This document shows positions 1-60,101 of a stretch of 64,000 bases of DNA, one piece after another (the first letter of the stretch is position 1; the number at the start of each line of letters is the position of its first letter). Both the position numbers and the translations under genes were made by a program. This DNA comes from Caenorhabditis elegans (lineage: Eukaryota > Nematoda > Chromadorea > Rhabditida > Rhabditidae). The notes below the pieces were generated by a model, which saw nothing but the letters and a program-made list of their open reading frames with translations, ran no database searches and was not told the origin of the DNA. The stretch is from positions 5,456,001 to 5,520,000 of the forward strand of contig NC_003279.8 in NCBI RefSeq assembly GCF_000002985.6. The letters run 5' to 3'.

Positions 1-3000
1 TTGTCAAGATCCTTGGGTTTCAGCTCGTCAGCGTAGCAATCCGTGTATTGAAAGTGTTTCCATGTTCCGGTTTCAGCTCTCTTCTGGATTTCAAAAGCTT
101 TGTCATGAGCCGTGTGTTGTCCAAGTTTCGGAACGAACGTCTGCCGAGTGTTCATCACAATCCAAGGACCAACAGCATTCCATTCATTTTCAAGAGGTGG
201 AACTTCTTTCGTCTTAACCCATTTTCCATCGTAAATATCAGATTCATCTTTCCATTTCAATGTGGGTTCCTTTGTCTGTACTTCATACAAAACAATGAAT
301 CTTTCGATGTCTGCTGGTTGTACGTGCTCCTTCCATTTTGTAAGCTGATCTGTACGTCCAAACCACATCTTTGCATGGAGTACTGCGACGTGCTGAAAGT
401 AATTTGTATTGTCATATGGAATTGGGCTAGTTTACTGAATTACCTCTCTTTTCCTGTTTCTCTGATCCACCAAAGTCGGCCATTGAATATTTATAGCACG
501 GGTCCTCCCACACCATTCTCCTGATTGAGCTTCATCATCTGATTGGAAAATCTCCGAAATCGGGATTTTGGCGAAACCGATTAACTTCCCATGGGACATC
601 ATTTTGATGAGAACGGGTGGAATGGTCATTTGAACATCTTCTGCCAACTCAAGAGTCATCGATCGAATTTGTAGAAGCATTCGAAGCAGCTTCGCATCGA
701 CTTCTCCATCGGAATAATCTATACTGAAGGCTTCCTTCTCGAAATGCTCTCGCAGCTTCAAGATCTTTTCCTTCCGGTAGTCAAGGATATGGCGATCCAG
801 TGCGTTGCTGTTAACATGGTTGATGCGTCTGAAATCATATTTTGAAATCGTGGAAAATCTAATTGACTCACCGCAAAAACTTGCTAGCCGACTCAATTTG
901 TTGCTCCAAGCACTCCAAAGATTCGATTCCAACAGAGGCGATTTGGTCAACAGCCCCACTTGAAATGTGCCGAATCTCACTTATCATTGAATCGAGCATA
1001 TTCGTCATTTTCATGAGAACATTGCTCATTTCAATCCTACGGTCAATAACTTCCCACGGAGCATTGACTTCGGCAACTGGACGGAGATTTCCCCATGCAA
1101 AACTGCAGCACTCGTGTTCATCACGTTCTGGGTAAGTTGGAACAGTTGAGCTATTGCATTTTTTGTCTTCGTTGCTCGTGCTTCCAAATGAACCGATTGA
1201 CATCATTATGCAGACTGGATCGGATGCGAATTGAGGATCGATCTTGTTGACGAGACTCATGGAACAAAAGCAGTTGTACCATTTGAGATTTTTCTGAAAT
1301 TCACAAAAAAGTTTAAGCAATGATCTACAGAAGTTCTCTTTCATGGCTTTGCAATTATGTTTCATAACCCTAATGTCTACAGTAATCAAACATCTATGGT
1401 AACTGTTACAGAATTTGAACACAAAATGCAATTTTAGAATACAGTAAGCCTTTAGTAACCGTATAACATAATCTACAGTACACTACACTTATAATTTAAT
1501 CACCAATAATTAAATGAAACATTCAATATTTTCTCAAATTTTCAATAACTTACACAAATCGATTCGGCTTCCATAATTTGGGAATAATCAAGATGCATGA
1601 TCTGAGCATTAGCCTTCTCCATATACTCTACACAATCGATCGCAATGAACAAACGTCCAACAAATCTGAAAATTAAACAAATTAATTTAGTATTCACTCT
1701 CCAAGTCTACCTGCTCCCATCCAGCTGGGATCCTCGCATTTTTCTTGAGAAGATGCTGAATCGAGACACGCGTTCGCAATCGAATACATTGAGGAACGCA
1801 GGTCCAAAAGTCGGGAGGTATCCAGCCACTCCTGGCTCGTAAATCATTTTCATTGGAAGAGTGGCTTTTCCGATGCACGTTTTGCCTCGTCCCTTTTTGT
1901 CGAACAATGAGAAAATAATCTGAAAATCAGTTATAAAATATCTTCGGAAATTGAAGAAAAAAGAGATAGGCAGGCACGTAGGCATAAAGACTGCCTACTA
2001 TGTCTCCGAGACGCGAAAAATACGGTCTTAAAATCCAAACTCATACCTCTGAGATGACAGTTGGCCATTGAATTGGAAGATAGATCTCTTACTCAAACTT
2101 CACTGACGCGATGTTTGCATCTTCATCAAGAAACGCAGATTCCATTGTTGTTTTGGTCTTGTGTGCTCCACACTGAACCATCACATAGAATCTTTGCTTT
2201 TTCTTGATCTTCCTCTCATTGATCATCTTTCGGATGAGCTGTTCCACGGAGAACACTCTGATCTGAAATGAAAAGTTATTAGTAATTAAGCATCTTAAGA
2301 GTATAATCAATGAGATGTGCCCCACTCCAGATTTGCTCCTTCCCACCGTCATCAATCAGCGTTGGTGGTGACTCGTCGATCCGGTACACAGAGAGCGTCA
2401 CCTTCAGGAATCCACAGTTCTCATAGGCGATATCGTCCGGTTCCTCGTCACTCATTCCAGGAAATCCCAGAGCAACCCATTTTGCAATGAGAGATCTGTC
2501 GGGAGAGCGGATTACTTCCGAGAGGTAGCAGCTGAACTCTCCGACGCTTGATTCTCCAAGTGCTGTAGGACGCACGAGCTGGAAAGTTAAATATTTGGAA
2601 ATTACAGAGAACATGCTTATTCACTGATAACGTTTCAAAGCAACCGAAGAAAAATATTCCAATGTTTAAAAGTTTACCCGAAAGGTCAAAACTTTGGCAG
2701 CAAGCTTCTCCAGTGGTTGGTTCTTCATTGTGTATAGAATATTTTGTCGCCACTTTGGAATTGCATGAGTCACTGTTCTAGTCATCTTTGATTTTCCGTC
2801 GAAGATCGTTCGAACTCTTGCGGATCCTGTGCTGACACCCTTCGCCTCAATAATCCGAACAAGAACATTCCAGGTGCATGATTTGTCAGTGTCTTGTAGT
2901 TTCCGTTTTTCAAAGTTTTTTCCATTATCTGGCAGCAGCTCGATGTCAGATCCACCATCGTTCAATAGCTCCTGAAATTTGTAAATTTAAAAAATAAGAT

Positions 3001-3523
3001 CACAAATATGCTCTCATTAATCTTTTTTTTATTTAAAAAGATTGTTGCAGCTCTAATAAATGGAATTATCAAACTCGAATAGAAGCTGAATATCAATAAT
3101 CCTAAAGAAATCTGAAATCGATAAATATTTTCGATAAAATATGCAAAATGTTATTGCCACGTAGATCTAACAATCGATACTAGCAAACTAATTCAACAAT
3201 CGATTGAATCACTGTGGAACCATCTCGCACTATGATACGACCATCTTTGTTCTGATTCTCAACTAATATTCCGAAACTAACAGTCATCTCCGATGTCCCC
3301 GTGCTCTTTCCAGATTTGCCATTTTTGCTGGATTTGCTCGTCTTGCTTGTATTCCTCGATTCGTTATCCGAATCGTCTTCATCCCGATCTCTCTCCGGGC
3401 CGGAATCCTGAAATATTGCAAAATTTAAAGGAATTTAATAAAAATAAGACATGCCACATCACTGGATGAATCCCCTCGCTTAAACTTTTGCTTCACTTTC
3501 AGTAGCTTTTCCTTGTCCGTCAT
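1..3523 (-). CDS. ferl-1: Ferlin family protein, 3' end cut by window edge
   Basis: Ferlins are tail-anchored multi-C2 proteins that act in calcium-linked membrane fusion and repair. The start is the ATG at 3523 (MTDKEKLLK), followed by an acidic Ser-rich exon (3408-3192) and about eight further exons running leftwards. Exons at 2974-2682 and 2579-2290 encode a C2-like beta domain. The exon near 1920-1710 carries YLPTFGPAFLNVFDCER, which aligns with the YLPTFGPCYINLYG stretch of dysferlin-type proteins. 1293-870 looks FerA-like helical, and 830-444 (IPPVLIKMMSHGK, FAKIPISEIF) matches the FerB domain. The leftmost exon has HAKMWFG and Trp-rich DysF-like repeats. The C-terminal C2 domains and membrane anchor lie outside the window. 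The family call is firm. The symbol comes from recalling the worm's second ferlin (T05E8.1) beside fer-1. Confidence 0.85.
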
Positions 3524-3637
3524 GTCGATTTGGTGGAAATTGAAAGAAATAACTTGGTTCCCGTGAAATTTTTGCAAGGGGTGTTGGATGACGTGGCAAT
3601 AAATGTGGCAAAGCTGTGAAGACAAGAGAAGCACAGG

Positions 3638-3678
3638 TCACGTGAGAAAAGATACGTGATTCAACTTTTTTCACGTGA
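3638..3678. promoter_or_regulatory. Two TCACGTGA E-box palindromes upstream of the ferlin gene
   Basis: TCACGTGA occurs at 3638-3645 and 3671-3678, 33 bp (about three helical turns) apart and 115-155 bp upstream of the ferlin start codon. The first copy is preceded by G (GTCACGTGA), close to the CLEAR/HLH-30 (TFEB) consensus. CACGTG is also bound by MXL/MML and other bHLH factors, so the factor is not decided. A further ACGTGA-like half site lies at 3654. Confidence 0.45.
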
Positions 3679-4134
3679 AACTTTTTTGTTTTTTTTTCTC
3701 ACGTATTTATTTTTGTTTCATTATTTTTCTGATTTTTAATTGTCAGCCAAATTGTAGTACGAAATTGGAATTCTCACTAGAAAAAGATGAAATTACCATG
3801 GTAGTGGACTAGTACGGTAGGAGTACTGTATTTTAGGCGAGCGCAAGTTCGGCGGGGAAAGAGGCCGTTTGCCAAATATCAATTTTCCAAATGTTTTCAA
3901 AAGGATTTTTGTTAGATAAAACTTTATTTTTGAATTTTTTATTCCTTTTCTTCAGATATTTTTATAGAATTTACTCACTCCTCATGATAGTCGTAAGAAC
4001 ATTTATAGGATGTACAATTTTGCAGTTTAATATTGAGATTTCAAAATTTCCAATAAAAATTGCAAAACCACAATTTGACGAAAATTTCAGTCATTGCCGT
4101 TTTTTTTCGGCAAATTGGGCAGTTCAAGATATGG

Positions 4135-4407
4135 AGCCGTATGCTCTTGGAGAAGAATAAACACTTACAGCCTCAGCGATATGGAGAAGTTTGCGATCAA
4201 GTGTGAAAAGGCGACTGCTGGAAAGAAAGTTCTTCTGATGGATTGTAATGTGATGAAAGGTGCAACGCAGATCAAAAACAGGCACGTTTGTGTTGTACTG
4301 GATCGGGCCAACGTCAAGGATCGAGTCAATTTCATTGTGATGAAACTTATCTGGAAGAATCTTTGGGATCTGAGACAGAATGACAGATCGCCAGATAGTC
4401 CTTGAAA
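4135..4407 (+). pseudogene. GC-richer open stretch, possible captured gene fragment
   Basis: An open frame of about 80 codons (LSDMEKFAIKCEKATAGK ... NLWDLRQNDRSPDSP, stop at 4403-4405) directly follows a dispersed repeat. Its base composition is clearly more exon-like than the AT-rich flanks. I do not recognise the family, and there is no convincing start or splice site. The opposite strand is also partly open, so the coding strand is unsure. It could be a gene fragment carried by a transposon, a decayed gene or a chance ORF. Confidence 0.3.
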
Positions 4408-4535
4408 ATTGTGAGCTCAAGTATTTATTAGAACCAAACTAGATAATAGTAACGTGGAACGGCTTCGTCATTTCATCGCCACCTGGAAATCGATAAAATT
4501 GTTTTGAGGAAAGCGATAATTAGTGGAATCTTAAC

Positions 4536-5380
4536 TACAAGGTGGCCCATAATTATGCGGATAGCATGTCGCGCTTATAAAATCTGATTGGAACAGTAAA
4601 AAATCTGATATCAACACATATTTAATTCCAAATTTTCTAAGGAACAAAATATGATGTCAAACTTTCAAAATATCCGCTTTTGCACATCTACAGGCCAGCT
4701 GACACTCCGAAAAAATTTTGAAGTTGGCACGCAACTCATAGGTGTTTTCCTTTTTATTGTCATTTCTAGGTACTGTTGCAAATATGAGCACTCGCGCAAT
4801 TATATTTGGATAAACTTTTCTCTGAAAATCCGTTTTTCAATATAATTCATAAAGGTTGGTATCCGACGTTCGACTTGACATGTCAGTTAAGTAAATGTTT
4901 CGATAAAAATCCATACCGATCTTTTTCTTTCCTTGTAGAAAAAATGTGCCTCATTTTATTTTTGAGCTATACCGAAATCTGCCATTAGCTAATGAACTCC
5001 TTTTAACATCGGCTTTGGTTACTGTCAAACACTCACCCATCAGATGCTGGAATTTTATAAAGAGATTTCATACGTCTAAATTTATGACAATATATTTTTT
5101 GCATCCAAAATTTATACATTACTGAAGAAAAAATCATTTTCAATAACTTCCAGACTCAAAAATCGTTGCGTGCCCAAAAGTCGTCAGTGTGAGAGACGAT
5201 GCTAGTTTGACGGCTCTGCCTAGATTGCGTGGTTTGAAAAATTAACATATTTTTTAAATTAACTGATAGGAACATATGTCAGCTATCAATAAACTAATGA
5301 AGCAATAACTTTGCATTTGTACAGCAAAAACATGTATTTGTGGAGCAACTCTGGTCCGCATAATTATGGGCCACCCTGTA
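4536..5380. mobile_element. Inverted-repeat DNA element, mariner/Tc-like ends
   Basis: The left end TACAAGGTGGCCCATAATTA and the reverse complement of the right end (TACAGGGTGGCCCATAATTA) match over about 26 bp. Both termini fall at TA dinucleotides, as expected for Tc1/mariner insertion. The roughly 845-bp interior has no transposase-like ORF, so it is a non-autonomous copy. Its ends resemble those of the element at 5732-6378. Confidence 0.75.
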
Positions 5381-49548: not shown

Positions 49549-51023
49549 TTAGTACCAGAAAGTAGGTTTTGGAGTTCTTTCCTCCTTGATTCCCATTTCT
49601 TCCATAATTTCCTGCTCGAAGCTCGCAACTTTTGGCATGTAGGTTCTTTCAAGTACAGCATCAGCTGGTGTATCTTTTCCTTCGACTTCTAAAATTGAAA
49701 TGAGTTAAACATTTTAAAAACTTTCAGAAACATACCAATATAATTTTCTGGCTGTAGATATTCATATGTAACTTTAGCTTGAGATGGAATTGGGATTTCA
49801 TATCCACTTCTTGTTGATACTCGAATATACTCATCACCAGGACCGTTTAATTGCCATCTGAAATTCATGAAATGTATCGTAAGGATTTTAGCTTCCTTTT
49901 TTCGAAAAATTCCATAAATTACCAATTTTGCTATTCAAACGAATAGATTAGACCAAGGATGCTAATTCCTTCATTTTTGATTTACTGCATTTTTCTTTGG
50001 AAAAATTTTTGATTTATGAAAAGACGAAGATGTTTAAAACTTTTGAGATGATTATGGGAAAAATTTTTTTTTAACTGAAAAGAGATATCATATCGTTGGA
50101 ACCTTTTTTTTGAGAATTGTTAATCCCTATAAATTTGGAAATTGCAACATTTTTTTTCTGAAAATTTTTGTGCCATCTAGATATAATTTTTCTTGTTTTT
50201 CTGCAAAAAATGTCTTCCGAATTTCTGGGTTAGACTACCTTGCTTCACATGGCTGTTCATCATTCGGATCGACCAGCATCACTTGTTTCTTCGACACTGA
50301 CAACGGTTGCTCTTGCCACCTGTATTAATTTGAAAATTAATTGCAAGTTCCCACGAGATTTCTTCCTAACCTGAGTGTTTTATCAACTCCTAACTTCTCA
50401 CTACCCTCCATGTCCTCACCGAGCTTTGTGTGCAAGCCATCAACGATCACCTATAACAAAAAATAAACTTTTGGGGTAACAAGACACAATTCTAACATCA
50501 CTGGAGTCTCTGCTAGTGGTTAGCACAAGTCCTTGCCGTCCTTTGTCTTTTCCGACCATCACTTGTACAAGATCTCCCGGGAAGAAAGTCCACTCTGTAT
50601 CGGCCATTCGTTCGGATTTTGGGCGACGAAGATTGAAGTATTGGTTGGAAAGTCTGCAAAAATACATAATTCAGAACGGAAAATAAACTTCCAAAACCGA
50701 TTTTTTCACTCACTGAGCCGAGAAATATTTGTCCGATCTATGTAGATGAGAAGAAATCTGTTTGTCTTCCCAAGGACGGCGATGTGATGGAACATAGTCA
50801 TCTGGATGAACATAGTACATTTTGATATCTGGAGCTCCGAACCTAAAAAGCTACAATTTGTAAGAGAATTGCTGGAAAAAAATTCAGCAACTTACCTATC
50901 TCCAAAAACTTTTCTCGGAACAGTTCGCTTTGTTCGTTCAACATAAGCAGAAGGCATATGCCTTGCGTAATCAAGATCCACAAATGGTTTACGTGGAATT
51001 CGAAGTGCACGAGAAGTAAGCAT
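49549..51023 (-). CDS. mrpl-24: Mitochondrial ribosomal protein L24 (uL24m)
   Basis: Seven exons from ATG 51023 (MLTSRALRIPRKPFVDLDYA, a basic mitochondrial-type presequence) through 50842-50716, 50655-50500, 50451-50371, 50320-50241 and 49858-49737 to a stop at 49549. The KOW motif is in FFPGDLVQVMVGKDKGRQG. The product continues with IVDGLHTKLGEDMEG, KKQVMLVDPNDEQPCEAR and ends TPKPTFWY. uL24m binds 16S rRNA early in large-subunit assembly in the mitochondrial matrix. The upstream neighbour on the same strand is the zinc transporter, 415 bp away, so shared transcription is possible but not shown. Confidence 0.92.
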
Positions 51024-51438
51024 CTGGAATTATGACTTGGAATATGACAAGAAAAACACTTGAAAGTATTCAAAAGTTGTTAAACTTTGAATTCCAAAAA
51101 AACATAAACTATCCGTTTCGAAAATCAAAATTCCGTTTTATGTACACATTTGGGAAAATATTGCATTTTGGTGGAGAGGGTGCAAAACAAAATAAGTTAA
51201 AAATTTCAGAAATGATGAATTATGCAGGGGCAAAAGAATACCGTTAATAAGAGTTATTATGAAGAGGGGAAAGGAATGCGTGGCACATTGAAGATTTCGA
51301 ATCCGGTAAAAAAATGCGTAATACGAAGAGAAATTATCACAGAAAATGGTAAAATTTTGGAATAAAAATGAAGTTTTTCACAGAAAACATTATGAACTCG
51401 CAAATTGTTGTAATGGGGTTGTGAACAAGTTTCCGAGT

Positions 51439-53169
51439 TTAACCCAATCCAACATCCATGCACATCATCACGAGGAATCCAATGATACATCCAAGGGATG
51501 CCAGCTTTCCATTTCCATTTCTTTGTGCTTCTGGGATAATATCATCGACAACCACGTAGATCATGGCTCCAGCCGCAAACGCCAGGGCATATGGAAGCAC
51601 AGGTTCCATAAAAATTACAGCAGCAGCTCCGAATAGAGCAGCAATCGGCTCAACCATTCCAGATAGTTGACCATACCAGAATGCCTAAAATTGATTAACT
51701 TGTTTTATTTCCAAAATTCGATATCTCACTTTCAGCTTAGAATGACCGAATGCTGCAAGTGGGAGTGAAACGGCAAGTCCTTCTGGGAAATTCTGAAGAC
51801 CAATTCCAATAGCTAAATTGAATGCCGATTCAAAAGTCGCTTGTTTTGTTTTTCCTGCTGATCCGAATCCGACACCAACGGCGAGACCCTGAAAATTAGA
51901 TATGATAAAAATTGTTTAAAAAGGTTGAAAAATACCTCAGGAATATTGTGAACGGTTACAGCTAAAATTAGCAAAAGAATCCGCCTCCATGATTGACGGT
52001 AATCTTCTTCTGGAATCACATCAGGACGCTTATCGGATCCCATATCAACAGATCGATCCCTTTCTCGATGTTCTTCATTTACTGATCTGAAATGTCACAA
52101 AATATAATTAAATTTCGAAGAAAACATAGGGTGAGGAGTTTGATCCGATTTCTTTGTTAAGTGTTAGTATAACCGAATATTTTTAAAAAAAGCGAAAAAA
52201 GAAGAAAATCAGAAAAATAGATTCGAAACGACGTGTTTGAAGTGATTTTTATTGAAATTTCCAAGACTTCTCGTGATGACATGCATCTTTCAGAGTGCAC
52301 AAGTACCCCAAGGTGCGATTAATAAAGTGAAACAGAAAATGGAACGGACAGTTTAACAATTAATTTAATTAATTGAACGTACACAGTTTGGATAGATTTC
52401 CGGTCTTACCACGAGAAGTCAGGAAAACAAGAACAAAAATAAAAGTTGACGCGTCATTTCTCACCTATTATTTTCTGATTTTCCGGCTGATTTCCGGTGT
52501 CGTTGTCGAAGTTCTCCTCCGGATTCACTGGTTGATCTAGAGTAGAACGATGGCTAATTTATGGCAAAACTATGAAAGGGTACACACGAATGAAAACCAC
52601 ACGTACAGTTACACAAATTTAGAAGTGGAAATTATTCCGAGCGTCTGTAGAAGAATTAGGACTTACCGCGCCAGAGCTGCAACATCAAGATCCTCGCGAG
52701 CCTGCATCAGTGACATCTCGGTTTCAGATCGACGTGTTGGTGGAGAGAGAAGTGATGTCATTCCAGCATCTCCGACACATCTTTAAAAATTTAGAAAGTG
52801 TAATTTAGTTCATTTAGTTTAGCTTACGATGGCAAAAGTGTGTCAGCCAAGTGAACAAATCCTGCTCCAACGGCGAAACCAATAGCAACAGGTACAAATG
52901 CCCATTTTTCAAAATCTGCTTCCGCGATTTCTATAGCTGGCGCGAGAAGGGACCAGAATGAGGCAGCAGTCATTACTCCTGCGGCAAATCCCAGGGAAAT
53001 GTCTACAGAAGTTTTGTTTCAAAAATCAGCTTCAATTTCAACTTTTACCTAACAACTTTTTACTCTGATGACGCATAATAAATACAAGAGATGCTCCAAG
53101 TGCCGTGACTCCCCATGTGAATGTGGCCGCAAGAAGCGCCTGATAAATTGGGTTAATACCCCGGATCAT
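51439..53169 (-). CDS. zipt-11: ZIP family zinc transporter, SLC39A11-like
   Basis: ATG at 53169 ([20 protein letters not shown]) right after TTTTTCAG. Seven exons: 53169-53051, about 53001-52830, about 52781-52670, about 52536-52465, 52087-51936, about 51890-51725 and 51688-51439. Helix 1-3 include [19 protein letters not shown]. The loop is Arg/Ser-rich ([19 protein letters not shown]). The metal-binding TM4/5 motifs [16 protein letters not shown] and [15 protein letters not shown] are intact. The C-terminus is [19 protein letters not shown] to [12 protein letters not shown]-type [15 protein letters not shown]39A11/gufA-like ZIPs import zinc into the cytosol from outside or from organelles. 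The symbol comes from matching the GufA subgroup and from memory of F59A3. Confidence 0.87.
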
Positions 53170-53486
53170 GCTGAAAAATATTAAAGTTTAGTCATAAAAA
53201 CTATAAGAAACTGAATACTGCAAAATAAATCTTTTAATATGACAGAAAACATACAATATAATAAAATAAATGCTTGCAGAATAAAAATGAAAAATGTGTT
53301 GGCAAATTTCCAAAGTACGCAATGTGTCGTAGATTTTACTGCTAGGTACGCAACCACTTAGTGTTAGAGAGTGTCTAGACGTTTATAGACGCAGACATCG
53401 GCTCGAGCGATTTCGAGCTGGAACACAATGATTCAGTGATTGATTTATGACTTTTCGAAAGAAAAATAAGATGGAAAACATATTTA

Positions 53487-55247
53487 TTATGAAAATATAA
53501 AAAGCATGCGTCATGCACTTTGTACTTGTATATTTTGTACAGAATAACATCAGTAAAGCTAAATATTTGACCGAATCAATTAAGCGACATGAACTCATTG
53601 TCTCTGGCCGAGTAAATCATTCCACTGTCTCCCATTTCTGTCAGAATGTCTCGAAGACGAGACTCTGGAATATCTTTTATGCGAGCCAAGATTCTTTCGA
53701 ATGGTACGCCTTCTTCGTCGCCGTATCCCTTACTGGCGGCTTCTGATCGGATAACTGCGCCAACCTGAATTGTCGTATTTTCTTTTTTGAAAATTTAAAA
53801 CATTATTTATTTACCTTCGCTTTCAATGCCGAAGAAGTTTTTGGTGAAATTGATTCGGACTGTGTTTTCGTGGTCGGTTTCACTTGTCTAGTGATAACTG
53901 GGCTCTGAAAAAAATGTTCAAGAGCTGAAATGATAAATGTTTGTTATTTATTTACCAAAATAGCCTGTGCGTCAATTTTATGATTTTGTCGTGACAACGG
54001 CGGAGCCAGCATTCCTTCCCATTTATAAGCTTTAGAAGTTCGCATTCGCTCGATCAAATTCTGAATAAATGGATTATTCTAAAAAAATAATATTGAAACA
54101 ACCTTTTTGAAGAATAAATAAGAAGCTTGTGTCTCCAACTTGAAAATTTCATACTCCTTGTTGTCAGCCAACTTTTGAAGGTAGTATATAAGAATCACTA
54201 AAAGTAAAACCGATATTTAGATATAATTAATTAATGAATTACTTTTATTTCCTGCGACATTCTTCAATTTTCCCATCAGACGGACTCGCGTGTCTTCCTC
54301 TAAACCCGGAGAGACGAACTTGGAGCCACCATCCTGAAAAAGTCAGTTAAACAAAACTATGATTTTATGAAAATATAAAAAGCATGCGTCATGCACTTTG
54401 TACTTGTATATTTTGTACAGAATAACATCAGTAAAGCTAAATATTTGACCGAATCAATTAAGCGACATGAACTCATTGTCTCTGGCCGAGTAAATCATTC
54501 CACTGTCTCCCATTTCTGTCAGAATGTCTCGAAGACGAGACTCTGGAATATCTTTTATGCGAGCCAAGATTCTTTCGAATGGTACGCCTTCTTCGTCGCC
54601 GTATCCCTTACTGGCGGCTTCTGATCGGATAACTGCGCCAACCTGAATTGTCGTATTTTCTTTTTTGAAAATTTAAAACATTATTTATTTACCTTCGCTT
54701 TCAATGCCGAAGAAGTTTTTGGTGAAATTGATTCGGACTGTGTTTTCGTGGTCGGTTTCACTTGTCTAGTGATAACTGGGCTCTGAAAAAAATGTTCAAG
54801 AGCTGAAATGATAAATGTTTGTTATTTATTTACCAAAATAGCCTGTGCGTCAATTTTATGATTTTGTCGTGACAACGGCGGAGCCAGCATTCCTTCCCAT
54901 TTATAAGCTTTAGAAGTTCGCATTCGCTCGATCAAATTCTGAATAAATGGATTATTCTAAAAAAATAATATTGAAACAACCTTTTTGAAGAATAAATAAG
55001 AAGCTTGTGTCTCCAACTTGAAAATTTCATACTCCTTGTTGTCAGCCAACTTTTGAAGGTAGTATATAAGAATCACTAAAAGTAAAACCGATATTTAGAT
55101 ATAATTAATTAATGAATTACTTTTATTTCCTGCGACATTCTTCAATTTTCCCATCAGACGGACTCGCGTGTCTTCCTCTAAACCCGGAGAGACGAACTTG
55201 GAGCCACCATCCTGAAAAAGTCAGTTAAACAAAACTATGATTTTATG
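53487..55247. repeat. 878-bp perfect tandem duplication
   Basis: Copy A (53487-54364) and copy B (54365-55242) appear identical at every base I compared. The boundary 5-mer TTATG occurs at 53487, 54365 and 55243, so the junction shows 5-bp microhomology. Each copy holds exons 4-8 of the RPA32-like gene with their introns. Confidence 0.97.
53576..54334 (-). pseudogene. 5'-truncated second copy of the RPA32-like gene (exons 4-8)
   Basis: Exact copy of exons 4-8 (starting [18 protein letters not shown], stop at 53578-53576), lacking promoter, start codon and exons 1-3. All splice sites are intact. It lies just downstream of the complete copy, after that copy's stop and 3' sequence. It could be transcribed by read-through and its exons could be used as alternative acceptors, but it would add nothing before the first stop unless exon 8 of the upstream copy were skipped. 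Confidence 0.85.
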
Positions 55248-55669
55248 TCTTCACATACGTTGTAATTTCCGAATTGAACTGCGTGAAATATCTTGGCAGT
55301 ATCTTCAGGATCATGAAGTGTATATGTTGTCTTCCCATCCTCGTACGATTTTTCCAAGATTACGCCAACTGTGTGAATCTAAAATTATAGTTTATTTTAT
55401 ATTAAATTTTATTTGTTAGAAATCGTACTGTTCGAAAACTATATTCTCCAATTTGATATGAATCATCGTCTGTATCTTCCAATTTTGTGCTCAAAGATGC
55501 AAGAGTCACTGGAAGCGGTAATTTGTCACCGAGAGATTGGAAACTTTGATTCTGAAAAATAATAAATCTAATTTTTGCTTTAAAATCAAACGATTTGTAC
55601 CTTTCTCTCTTGTGAAATATCATGCGATGACCATCCATCGCTAGTGTCAAAATTTCGATCGAACTCCAT
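54454..55669 (-). CDS. Replication protein A 32-kDa subunit-like (RPA2/RPA4 type)
   Basis: Eight exons from ATG 55669: 55669-55601 ([17 protein letters not shown], a short acidic/Ser N-terminus), 55552-55430, 55379-55258, 55212-55122, 55077-54980, 54957-54836, 54782-54693 and 54643-54454. The OB fold is in [31 protein letters not shown] and [10 protein letters not shown]. After a Ser/Thr linker ([16 protein letters not shown]) the C-terminus is the winged helix typical of RPA32 ([38 protein letters not shown]). It would pair with the large RPA subunit on single-stranded DNA in the nucleus. The worm has two such genes, rpa-2 and rpa-4. Location suggests rpa-4, but I cannot settle it. Exons 4-8 lie in the duplicated unit. 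Confidence 0.85.
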
Positions 55670-56062
55670 TGTTCGTGTTTTCTGTCGCGCTGAAATGATA
55701 CAAAATGGCAGAGAAAAGTTTCGGTTTCGGCCGCCAGGGCACTCTGGGTAAATAAAAAAAGAAAACAAATTCACAATTATCCGGCACATAAAAAACTGTA
55801 TTAAAACTTAAATTCGAAATTGTTCCGAAAAATCGTTGCAAAAATTCAAAGTGTTTCTACAGTATCCTATTTAAAGGCGCATACGGTCAATGCAACTAGC
55901 TGGTTTCGCTACGAAGTACCGTATTGGCTTTAAAAATCTTTTTCAGAGCTCTGAAAAAGATTTTTAAGCCACGATTTTACTCAAATTGCTCTCACTTTAA
56001 ATGTTTTGTTCATTTTTTCACCAATGAAACTAATTTTACATTTTCAGAGTAGTCTGCACAAT
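55670..56062. promoter_or_regulatory. Shared divergent promoter with a near-perfect palindrome
   Basis: 393 bp separate the RPA32-like start from the divergent plus-strand gene. 55859-55925 is a partial GGTCTCGAC/TTTAAAGGCGCATAC-family repeat. 55926-55970 is a palindrome: GGCTTTAAAAATCTTTTTC and its mirror GAAAAAGATTTTTAAGCC, joined by AGAGCTCT with no loop and one extra T. TTTTCAG at 56041-56047 lies 16 bp before the plus-strand ATG. Confidence 0.6.
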
Positions 56063-58462
56063 ATGAAATCGATCGGTCGGCTCAACAAGAGGAAAGTTTT
56101 TGCAGGTATTGTTTTGAATTTCAGCTTTTTAGTCTTTTCCATGTTTTCTAATTATCATAACTTTAATTAGTTCCTTCTATATAAATTTAATTATAGATTC
56201 TGACCCAGAAAAAGAAGAAGAAGCGAAATCTCCGCCGAAAAAGAAATCTAAGCGTTCATCACGATGCTTCAATCAAAATCGAACTCCCGATCAAAAAACT
56301 CGAGATTCTGCAGGATTTTCCAAGAATGTATTTGTAGCTTCTTTCCAATCATTCTTCAAAAGATCAAAAATCTGGCCACTTCTGACTATCCGTGGACCGT
56401 ATATTCATATTGTGACCAGGCTTAGCAATAGTTCGATCAAAAATCGTCCATTCTACTGTCTTATTCGCGAAATCTTAGAGAAAGTTCATGAAAGAACATT
56501 AGAATACAGGGACGTTGACATTCCAAAAATCACACAGCGATCCGATGTCTCAAATAAGCCCCGAGTTGAGAATGTGATGGCCATAACGGAAAAAATGTGT
56601 CAAAAAGTGTTCCGATTAAAAAATGAAAATGGATTATCGATTGATTTATACGAAGACGGAATGATTGCGCCACTTCGAAATGTTTTCTTCAAAAAAGTAA
56701 CTAGAATTCCATATGATTCAAGCACGGAAATTCGAGATCGCCTGTCTACTCTCTGCCAGAAAAGGAATATTTATGTGACAAGAGAAGAATTAGAAGATGG
56801 AAGAAATGCGTTCGTACAATATTGTTATAATCTTTCACTAGATTTATTTCTGTAGGTTTATTTCTTCAAATTGATCACACGAAATATATTATTTCATTTC
56901 AGACATATCCTTTCAACAAATGTTAATAAATTCACTGGCAGTGTGCAGATTCAGGCCTTTCGAACATCTGAAGTTCACTCAAATCTTCAAATTCACACCG
57001 ATACGACATGGTTCGGTGGATCGGCTAGGCTGAAGTCAATTACTTCGTCGACATTAGAACGTGGACGTCCGCCTGCTTCATTATGGCTCACAATCCCATG
57101 TGAAGAAAAAGAGCATCTTTTGGAGCATGTATTCGAGCATGGTCTCATTCAATTGATGCCAGACGGTGCTAAGACATTTTTTGACGCTTGGATGATTGGG
57201 GTTCGGAAAAGAATGAGAAAACGATTGACAAGTGGAGATTTGAGGTATCGTTTCACTCGAATAATCCTTAAAGTGAATAATTTTTCAGACAAGTAGTGGA
57301 GACCGTAATGTCAGAAAGTTCATACAACAGAGAAATGACACTCAACGATGATCGAATAGAGCAATTCGTTGTCAAAATGATTGACAATGTGCTTAACACA
57401 AAAAAACTTAAAATCTTTGATGGAAAATGGAAGGACTTTACTATTGATCTGATTAAAAATATGAAAGGAAACCCATTCGGAGAATTCCCTGATTGCCAGA
57501 AAATTATTGGAGATGTTTGTGAAAAGAGTAAGATTTTATACTTTTGTTTACATTTTAATCACCTTAATTTTTCAGTGAAACCATCATATCTTTCTCAGCT
57601 AACTACTCTGTTCTCCAGTTCACCATCCGATCAGTCAATGCTCGCCCACACTCTACTACAACTTCTTCGATTCGTGGTGTGTCTCTCTTTGAACACTATT
57701 CGACATGCTTTTCACTTCCATCGTGAAACGTTCACCGTCTCTTTCGACGGACAACTTGATGATGAAGTTACTGATTTTGATGATTTCGATCAGACAATTT
57801 TTTGTGAGGTAAACATACCCAATTGTTATTTAAAACCTTTTGTATAAATTATTTAATTTTTCAGTCATCATCTGCCAACTCGTCCTGCTACCCAACACCA
57901 CCAATTGAACGTCACATTTTGAGACCTCGCGTGACTCTACTACCAACTCCAACTCTTGTTTTTGTTCCAATTTCGCCTGTAAAGAATCTTCCGAGTGATT
58001 TTAATCCTCGAATTGTAAGATTGCATGTATCATAAAATATTCTAAAACCATAATTTCCAGCCTCCTCCTCAAATTTACTCGTCACCTGGGCAAGCCTTGT
58101 TCAATCCAACAAACCTCTACCCAACTCCACCATCGTCACTACCGAATACATATGTACCGAATCAGGAATCCTTCGATGAGAGCGTGAATCGAGATAAAAA
58201 ATCATTCATTTTCAACAATCACTCGAAAGCCAACTTCTCAAATCCAACGTTAACGGCAGAAGTGACAGAAGAAGAACTTCTAAGTGCCCGAGCACTCCGA
58301 ACACCGTCAGTTGTCAGTGGATCAATGCTTAATCAACTGGATGATGAGGATGGGGATTTACCGAAGAAATGGGTCAATGCTTATAAGCTAACGTTGGAAT
58401 GGAATCAAGATCTGAAGTCTGAACTGGAAAAAGTGAAAAATCGCTTGGATAAACTTTCATGA
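56063..58462 (+). CDS. Unrecognised 687-residue protein, probably nuclear
   Basis: Seven exons close exactly in frame: 56063-56105, 56197-56851, 56903-57244, 57289-57527, 57576-57808, 57865-58014 and 58061-58462 (2064 nt). The N-terminus is basic and NLS-like (LNKRKVFA, SPPKKKSKRSSRCF). A mostly helical body of about 400 residues follows (WPLLTIRGPYIHIVTRL, LCQKRNIYVTREELEDGR, LWLTIPCEEKEHLLEHVF). Then a Pro/Ser/Thr-rich part has repeated YPTPP motifs (CYPTPPIERH, LYPTPPSSLPNTY), and it ends in a short coiled coil (LTLEWNQDLKSELEKVKNRL). I do not recognise the family. The gene shares a promoter region with the RPA32-like gene and is followed 206 bp later by another unrecognised gene on the same strand. 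TPP sites could be proline-directed phosphorylation sites. Confidence 0.85.
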
Positions 58463-58668
58463 CATAACCTTGTTATTGAATTTGTTTTGTTATTTTCTTT
58501 GTTTGTTGTTAAATTGTCTGTTAATATCAGTTCTAGCGTTCATAAATTTTTTGTTTTACGAAGGTATCAATCTGAGTTTGAAAAATGGATTGACTCGATC
58601 ATTCATTGAAAATATTGTAATCTTATTGAAAAAACCCTAATTTTTCTCAGGTTTTGCAGAAAGAGAAA

Positions 58669-59827
58669 ATGAGTCAAGTTACATCAGAGGATCAAGACGA
58701 TCTATTCCTAAAGTTTGATTTTTCAAAAGAACAACAAAAGTACGTTTTTAATTATTCAGAGATCTACAAAACGGATGGGAATCGGTTCCCACTGGAAATT
58801 CATCTAATAACCATTGTTTTGACAAAATGTACGACTTGTATGGTGTTGGAGGTGTCAAAAACGTGCTTTGTCTTCGACTTTTCGCCTCATCCCTCTATGA
58901 AATTGTAAGAAATGCTCAGATATTTTGGAAAGAATATGAAATTTCAGTCCAATGGAAGTAAGGATGCCCAAAAATTGATGATAACTATCTTCGGTGATCG
59001 TCTAGTTCAGAAAATCGCCCATTCCGATTTGAAAATTTACGAATCCATCAGAGAGACTGTACAATATATCGCTTGGAAAATCCGAAAATGCCAAATTTTG
59101 TAGGCTTCTGAAAAAGTAGCACAATATTTTCAAACTAACTTTCAGAATTTTCCGCCGTACAAGTGAAAACCATGGATGGCAAAGTGTTCGAGACATTCTG
59201 ATCAAGATTCTTGGTAACGGAGATAGTGCTCGAGATGATTTGATTGCTGGAATGGTAGTTTTTAGAATCTTTTTATTTGTCTTAATTAAAATTTATTTTT
59301 CAGTCCTCCATGATTCTTCGCGACATTTATCACTGCCACGTTACGGAAACAAGCTTCTTGGAAGAAGGATCACTTTTATCAAAGAATTGCTTCAAATATG
59401 TCTTTCGTGTTGCTTTCCTTCTTTTCAATGACTCAATCGGCGAATATATTCTTGGTCGGAAGGAGAAGTTGTGCTATGAAATGCTCGCTTCTCGATTGGT
59501 TTACTTTTATACTCGACTGGCTGCTGACACTTGGAGGTTAGAAATCGATATTCGATTCTAAATTCATACGTTTCCCTTTTCAGAATTCTTGTTGTTCGCA
59601 ATGGACCGAAAGTAGAGACGGAGTGGTACATGATGCGTGGCGTACAGGTAACTTTATAAAAAATTGCCCATATTCCAAATTATTTCCAGTTGCGAGATGA
59701 GATCCCGGCAAGTTCGAATCAAGACTCCAAACTGACCCAGCTCCAAAAAAACAACAACAATGACCCAATCAGTCAACAGAGACCTCAACTCAGCTTTGGA
59801 ACTCAGAAAACTATTCAAAGAGCCTAA
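58669..59827 (+). CDS. Unrecognised 294-residue protein
   Basis: Seven exons close exactly in frame: 58669-58712, 58760-58904, 58948-59099, 59146-59254, 59304-59536, 59584-59647 and 59690-59827 (885 nt). The first intron is 47 bp. The start MSQVTSEDQDDLFLK is preceded by TTTTTCTCAG (58650), a likely trans-splice acceptor. The body is helical with no transmembrane segment (SLYEI, GDRLVQKIAHSDLKIYESI, VQYIAWKIRK, GWQSVRDILIKIL). The last exon is Gln/Asn-rich (LTQLQKNNNNDPISQQRPQ). No domain was recognised. The 206-bp distance from the preceding gene on the same strand fits a two-gene operon. Confidence 0.83.
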
Positions 59828-60101
59828 CTTTCATTTTATGTATTTGTTTCGTGTGTTCTACTAGTGTTCCTTCTTACATATCAGATGTTGTATTTATAAT
59901 CTATATCTGCACCATTCTATTTCCTATCCCATTCTACTTGTGTCCTGTTCTCTGGTCTCAAAATGATCACTATGAGATCTCTTTTCCATAAGTGTTAAAA
60001 GCGTGCCATAATGAACTGTTTTATTAAATCGACGTGAGAAAAACGCATATGATTTTCATTTAAAAAACATTTTAATAATGTGAAACACATAAACCTGAAG
60101 A
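59828..60101. other. Intergenic, no feature seen
   Basis: 3' UTR of the preceding gene and short promoter of the next. AT-rich, no gene or repeat recognised. Confidence 0.5.

Follow-up and report, generated by a model that had tools for sequence, protein, structure and literature searches.

The window analysed here, a stretch of 64,000 nucleotides of Caenorhabditis elegans DNA (NC_003279.8, positions 5,456,001 to 5,520,000 of the forward strand; positions given below count from its first letter unless a contig is named), contains a gene that carries a perfect tandem duplication within its own boundaries. The duplicated gene is rpa-4, a paralogue of RPA32 on the minus strand at C1:5.51 Mb; we make this assignment because three printed rpa-4 guides, of which 18-20 nt were used, match the window exactly. 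Specifically, the published tagging guide matches exactly at 55638 on the minus strand in exon 1, one printed knockout guide (18 nt searched) has one match in the window at 55496 in exon 2, and the other knockout guide matches in exon 8 and again in exon 8' (the prime denotes the partial copy). Using splice sites and the open frame, we predicted from the sequence an exon model of rpa-4 with eight exons on the minus strand, which comprise 900 bases including the stop codon and encode 299 residues. Exons 1-3 (55259-55669) are single and exons 4-8 together with the 3'UTR are doubled. Because rpa-4 lies on the minus strand, the complete copy is the unit at the higher coordinates, and under the predicted exon model this copy holds an intact 299-residue frame. 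The right edge of the duplication lies inside intron 3 and the left edge lies in the 3' end of rpa-4. All features are collected in the table.

Positions of the features of the duplicated rpa-4 locus in the window
Feature	Position	Strand	Basis
AATAAA behind the partial copy; first two bases in the microhomology, last four outside the repeat	53483..53488	-	sequence
TTATG, outer left edge	53487..53491	.	lag-878 comparison
Downstream partial copy: intron 3 remnant, exons 4'-8' and 3'UTR, without exons 1-3	53487..54369	-	identity and exon model
Exons 4'-8' with introns, partial copy	53576..54333	-	exon model
Published rpa-4 knockout guide (19 nt), match in exon 8'	53717..53735	+	exact match
TTTTTCAG, 3' splice site of exon 4', whose own intron 3 donor is missing from the partial copy	54334..54341	-	sequence and exon model
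CATAAA behind the complete copy, replacing AATAAA	54364..54369	-	sequence
TTATG, junction microhomology	54365..54369	.	lag-878 comparison
Upstream copy (in gene direction), in the complete rpa-4: end of intron 3, exons 4-8 and 3'UTR	54365..55247	-	identity and exon model
Exons 4-8 with introns, complete copy	54454..55211	-	exon model
Same published rpa-4 knockout guide (19 nt), match in exon 8	54595..54613	+	exact match
TTATG, outer right edge, within intron 3	55243..55247	.	lag-878 comparison and exon model
rpa-4 exon 3, single copy, ends in phase 0	55259..55378	-	exon model
rpa-4 exon 2, single copy	55429..55551	-	exon model
rpa-4 exon 1, coding part, single copy	55601..55669	-	translation; match of the published tagging guide

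In Pfam, the predicted RPA-4 protein matched the C-terminal RPA_C domain (PF08784) with 23.2 bits against a cut-off of 22.6 (E 1.2e-4), and MCM_C was listed with a score under its cut-off; no OB family matched at E 0.1, and no sequence of a solved structure matched at E 0.001. A genome search with RPA-4 led to the paralogue rpa-2 at C1:4770444-4770770 (E 8.4e-15), and in an alignment of RPA-4 and RPA-2 94 of 305 columns were identical. Both rpa-4 and rpa-2 of C. elegans are described by Hefel et al. 2021 (PMC7913698), and M04F3.1 is RPA2 in one published listing. The published phenotypes of rpa-4 include sensitivity to hydroxyurea and to irradiation. Hefel et al. (PMC7913698) give isoform 'a' of RPA-4 as 30.56% identical to RPA-2; by this measure the 299-residue form (30.49-31.29%) and a conceivable 432-residue form considered below (19.19-32.38%) gave values that depend on the alignment settings and led to no decision as to which of them is isoform 'a'.

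In an exact self-comparison at a lag of 878, window 53487-54369 and 54365-55247 were identical over 883 bases with 0 mismatches and a period of 878. The repeat consists of an 878-bp unit plus the 5 bp TTATG common to both outer edges and the junction; the copies are adjacent and head-to-tail with precise edges, and their identity reaches both edges without a mismatch. The coordinates, period and three-fold TTATG given in the preliminary description were right, as was its placement of exons 4-8 in both units, and its proposal that a complete copy was retained next to a promoterless copy of exons 4-8 is borne out by the lag-878 identity together with the exon model. A search of the worm's own genome (100,286,401 bases in 7 contigs) returned 2 matches, each of 100% and both at rpa-4. 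There was no third copy among the best candidates scored genome-wide, with very common words skipped; a search confined to best candidates could let a diverged or fragmentary third copy escape. At window 50000-60000 (seed 14, minimum length 25), the rpa-4 repeat was the sole direct-repeat family and no inverted pair was found, and the window held no other identical run of at least 150 bases at lags of 150-4999. Elsewhere, at window 8222, there is a direct repeat of 55 identical bases at a lag of 176.

What the preliminary description missed is that the complete copy lost its canonical poly(A) signal in the duplication. AATAAA straddles the edge of the repeat; the complete gene therefore has a non-canonical signal, and AATAAA follows after another 881 bases. 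On the minus strand, the sequence behind the partial copy is TTTTCATAATAAATATG, with AATAAA, and that behind the complete copy is TTTTCATAAAATCATAG, with CATAAA; the microhomology reads CATAA on this strand, and AATAAA begins with its final two bases. No AATAAA occurs on the minus strand from the stop codon of the complete copy to 54330. CAUAAA is a weaker but used variant of the poly(A) signal, and a literature search for its use in worms gave no title on worms. AATATA is present in both copies 41 nt past the stop codon and could be a further weak poly(A) signal. From these motifs, we infer that the displacement of AATAAA may affect where rpa-4 RNAs end.

To describe the messages that transcription across both copies could yield, we computed the possible exon joins. 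Joining exon 3 to exon 4' gives the same 299-residue protein as the normal message. Exons 3, 5, 6 and 7 each have a phase 0 end, so that a join from exon 7 to exon 4' preserves the frame; its product has 432 residues. Joining each of exons 3-7 to each of exons 4'-8' makes 25 combinations; the normal C-terminus is preserved in 17 of them and the frame is shifted in the other 8. A stretch of 36 nt leads from 54369, where CATAAA starts, to 54334, where TTTTTCAG ends. In SL2 operons, the distance from the upstream poly(A) signal to the downstream 3' splice site is ~100 nt, and we rejected an SL2-type operon on the grounds that the 36-nt spacing is too short by comparison. In worms, an acceptor without a donor can receive a spliced leader; in a message with a leader joined at exon 4', the first ATG would open a frame of only 10 codons. 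General accounts of leader trans-splicing are found in PMC9303266 and PMC5025045.

The next gene on the same strand (window 51501-53169, minus) codes for a zinc transporter of the ZIP family (PF02535, E 2.1e-19 with a fragment joined by hand). Its ATG at 53169 stands directly after TTTTTCAGC, ~310 nt past the AATAAA behind the partial rpa-4 copy, and this arrangement would allow for a shared transcript or for leader splicing at this site. On the other side, an apparent divergent gene (window 56064-57500, plus) starts ~400 bases from the rpa-4 start codon; the open stretch at 56196-56852 (plus) had no Pfam match at E 0.05.

We consider it quite probable that the locus records one tandem duplication within rpa-4, recent in origin and 878 bp long, with 5-bp microhomology. 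The five bases TTATG would have paired, and a DNA end at the 3' end of rpa-4 would then have been joined within intron 3. Among 200,000 random draws of breakpoint pairs from the window, a fraction of 0.010 shared at least 5 bases, so that the junction microhomology exceeds chance, although it represents one single event. The complete copy would still give the normal protein, with its transcripts ending at CATAAA, reading on to the distal AATAAA, or being spliced from exon 3 to exon 4', and the partial copy would contribute minor isoforms at most. We rejected an origin by unequal crossing-over between longer edge repeats because the edges share 5 bp alone and no further repeat was reported at 50000-60000.

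The pathway was most likely polymerase-theta end-joining of an extended repair intermediate; a microhomology-guided template switch in replication would be the alternative. Tandem duplications in helq-1 worms range from ~100 bp to 10 kb with a median of ~1 kb, carry microhomology and depend on polq-1 (PMC8654963), and in a second helq-1 set they measure 457-8089 bp with a median of 1270 bp (PMC8078821), while those reported for brc-1 and brd-1 are mostly ~10-20 kb (PMC7368036). The rpa-4 duplication resembles these duplications in its head-to-tail arrangement and junction microhomology, and its 878 bp lie within the helq-1 range of ~100 bp-10 kb and near the two helq-1 medians. Because helq-1 duplications are similar in size and have microhomology, the size and the junction at rpa-4 fit polymerase-theta end-joining. 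The published duplications differ in that they arose in mutants within tens of generations, whereas the one in rpa-4 is part of the reference genome and its pathway is deduced from its structure. Inverted repeats were tied to 7 of 17 helq-1 duplications (PMC8078821); at rpa-4, where 300 bases were examined around every one of the three edges, the longest exact inverted arm was 8, equal to the median of 150 random places. This lack of inverted repeats beyond chance, together with the absence of inserted bases at the rpa-4 junction, counts against the explanation favoured here. The pathway cannot be proven from one event, and it also counts against it that tandem duplications are rare in the wild type: they are described as 'rarely found' in wild-type worms (PMC8654963), and 0 were reported in 240 generations (PMC7368036).

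The rpa-4 duplication belongs to a kind already described in worms. Among 76 N2 samples, Vergara et al. 2009 (PMC2728738) found 29 with a tandem duplication of 108 kb; they concluded that it was laboratory-born, and it created a new gene, F56A4.3, where its copies meet. The resemblance to rpa-4 is that the polymorphic N2 segmental duplications in that report include a recent tandem duplication in laboratory N2; they are, however, treated at the level of whole genes (pairs >1,000 bp in its Table 2, the largest 108 kb), whereas the duplication described here lies inside a single gene. C05D2.3 is likewise a tandem duplicate directly downstream of its partner, bas-1, and a possible operon was considered for the pair, but it is ancient, with 59% amino-acid identity, and is a gene of its own; a leader-spliced transcript of C05D2.3 could not be isolated (PMC514703). 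Hefel et al. (PMC7913698) deal with the same gene as we do, and the parts of their paper on rpa-4 make no mention of an 878-bp duplication of exons 4-8. As a control, 20 of 160 randomly drawn 10-kb stretches were scanned for identical runs of at least 150 bases at lags of 150-4999; such runs were found in 2 of the 20. One stretch (L015:8252-9442; G000:C1:7536256-7537446) holds a perfect head-to-tail duplication with 595 identical bases at a lag of 596, and because the identity is one base shorter than the lag, this junction has one extra base. The other (L013:9159 onward; G000:C2:857093 onward) holds a 161-base identical run at a lag of 254. Because another perfect duplication was present in 1 of 20 random stretches, the rpa-4 duplication looks ordinary here, and the scan suggests that such duplications are not rare in the assembly, with one in 200 kb as a very loose estimate.

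At mutation rates of 1.3-2.7e-9 per base and generation, 0 differences in 2 x 878 bases give a 95% upper bound on the age of the duplication of 0.63-1.31 million generations. A million generations take 10,000 years or less (PMC514703), and at this pace the upper figure of 1.31 million generations places the duplication at less than ~13,000 years of age. Because zero differences give only an upper bound, a laboratory origin and a wild origin are not separated. Identity also limits only the time since the copies were last homogenised, and adjacent direct copies are good partners for gene conversion, which speaks for an older duplication kept identical by conversion; conversion would, however, be expected to leave diverged margins, yet the identity runs free of mismatches to both edges, and we regard this history as rather unlikely. 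That the second unit is an artefact of assembly or cloning, with one unit present in the animal, we regard as very unlikely: exact tandem copies are a classic assembly error, but the two places that form the edges here are unrelated apart from 5 bp in common, as expected of a biological junction.

Two further readings concern what the duplicated gene makes rather than how it arose. Because the complete gene lost its AATAAA in the duplication and AATAAA now follows 881 bases later, this single step might have made rpa-4 a read-through unit in which most transcripts span both copies and give N2 an extra 432-residue or C-terminal product absent in wild relatives. Alternative cis-splicing, with exon 4' joined to either exon 3 or exon 7, or trans-splicing of a leader to the orphan acceptor of exon 4' would then resolve these transcripts. 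This reading overlaps with the single recent duplication favoured above, so that the chances we attach to the two are not mutually exclusive; taken by itself, we think it unlikely. Also compatible with a single recent duplication is the idea that the partial copy was kept for a useful product, either the 432-residue protein or a C-terminal fragment from a message trans-spliced to a leader. The phase 0 ends and the in-frame join of exon 7 to exon 4' speak for it, as do the 36 nt between the start of CATAAA and the end of TTTTTCAG and the presence of AATAAA only behind the distal of the two copies. An in-frame join has, however, a chance of about 1/3, the first ATG available to a leader-spliced message soon runs into a stop codon, and the repeated segment probably has only part of the OB fold, as judged from the family. 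We consider retention for such a product improbable.

Because one knockout guide matches both copies of exon 8, rpa-4 deletion alleles, such as rpa-4(iow21) and rpa-4(iow24), may retain differing lengths of the partial copy; the parts of PMC7913698 on the knockout do not state in which copy of exon 8 the deletion ends. Measures of rpa-4 exons 4-8 by short reads or qPCR count two places. More generally, the locus shows cleanly and to the base how a small repair accident can duplicate the exons of a gene, in this case a gene whose product is itself a repair protein. Of the consequences, the most interesting may be that the poly(A) signal has been displaced, which possibly permits read-through messages. 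Should only N2 carry the duplication, results on RPA-4 from this strain would describe the species incompletely.
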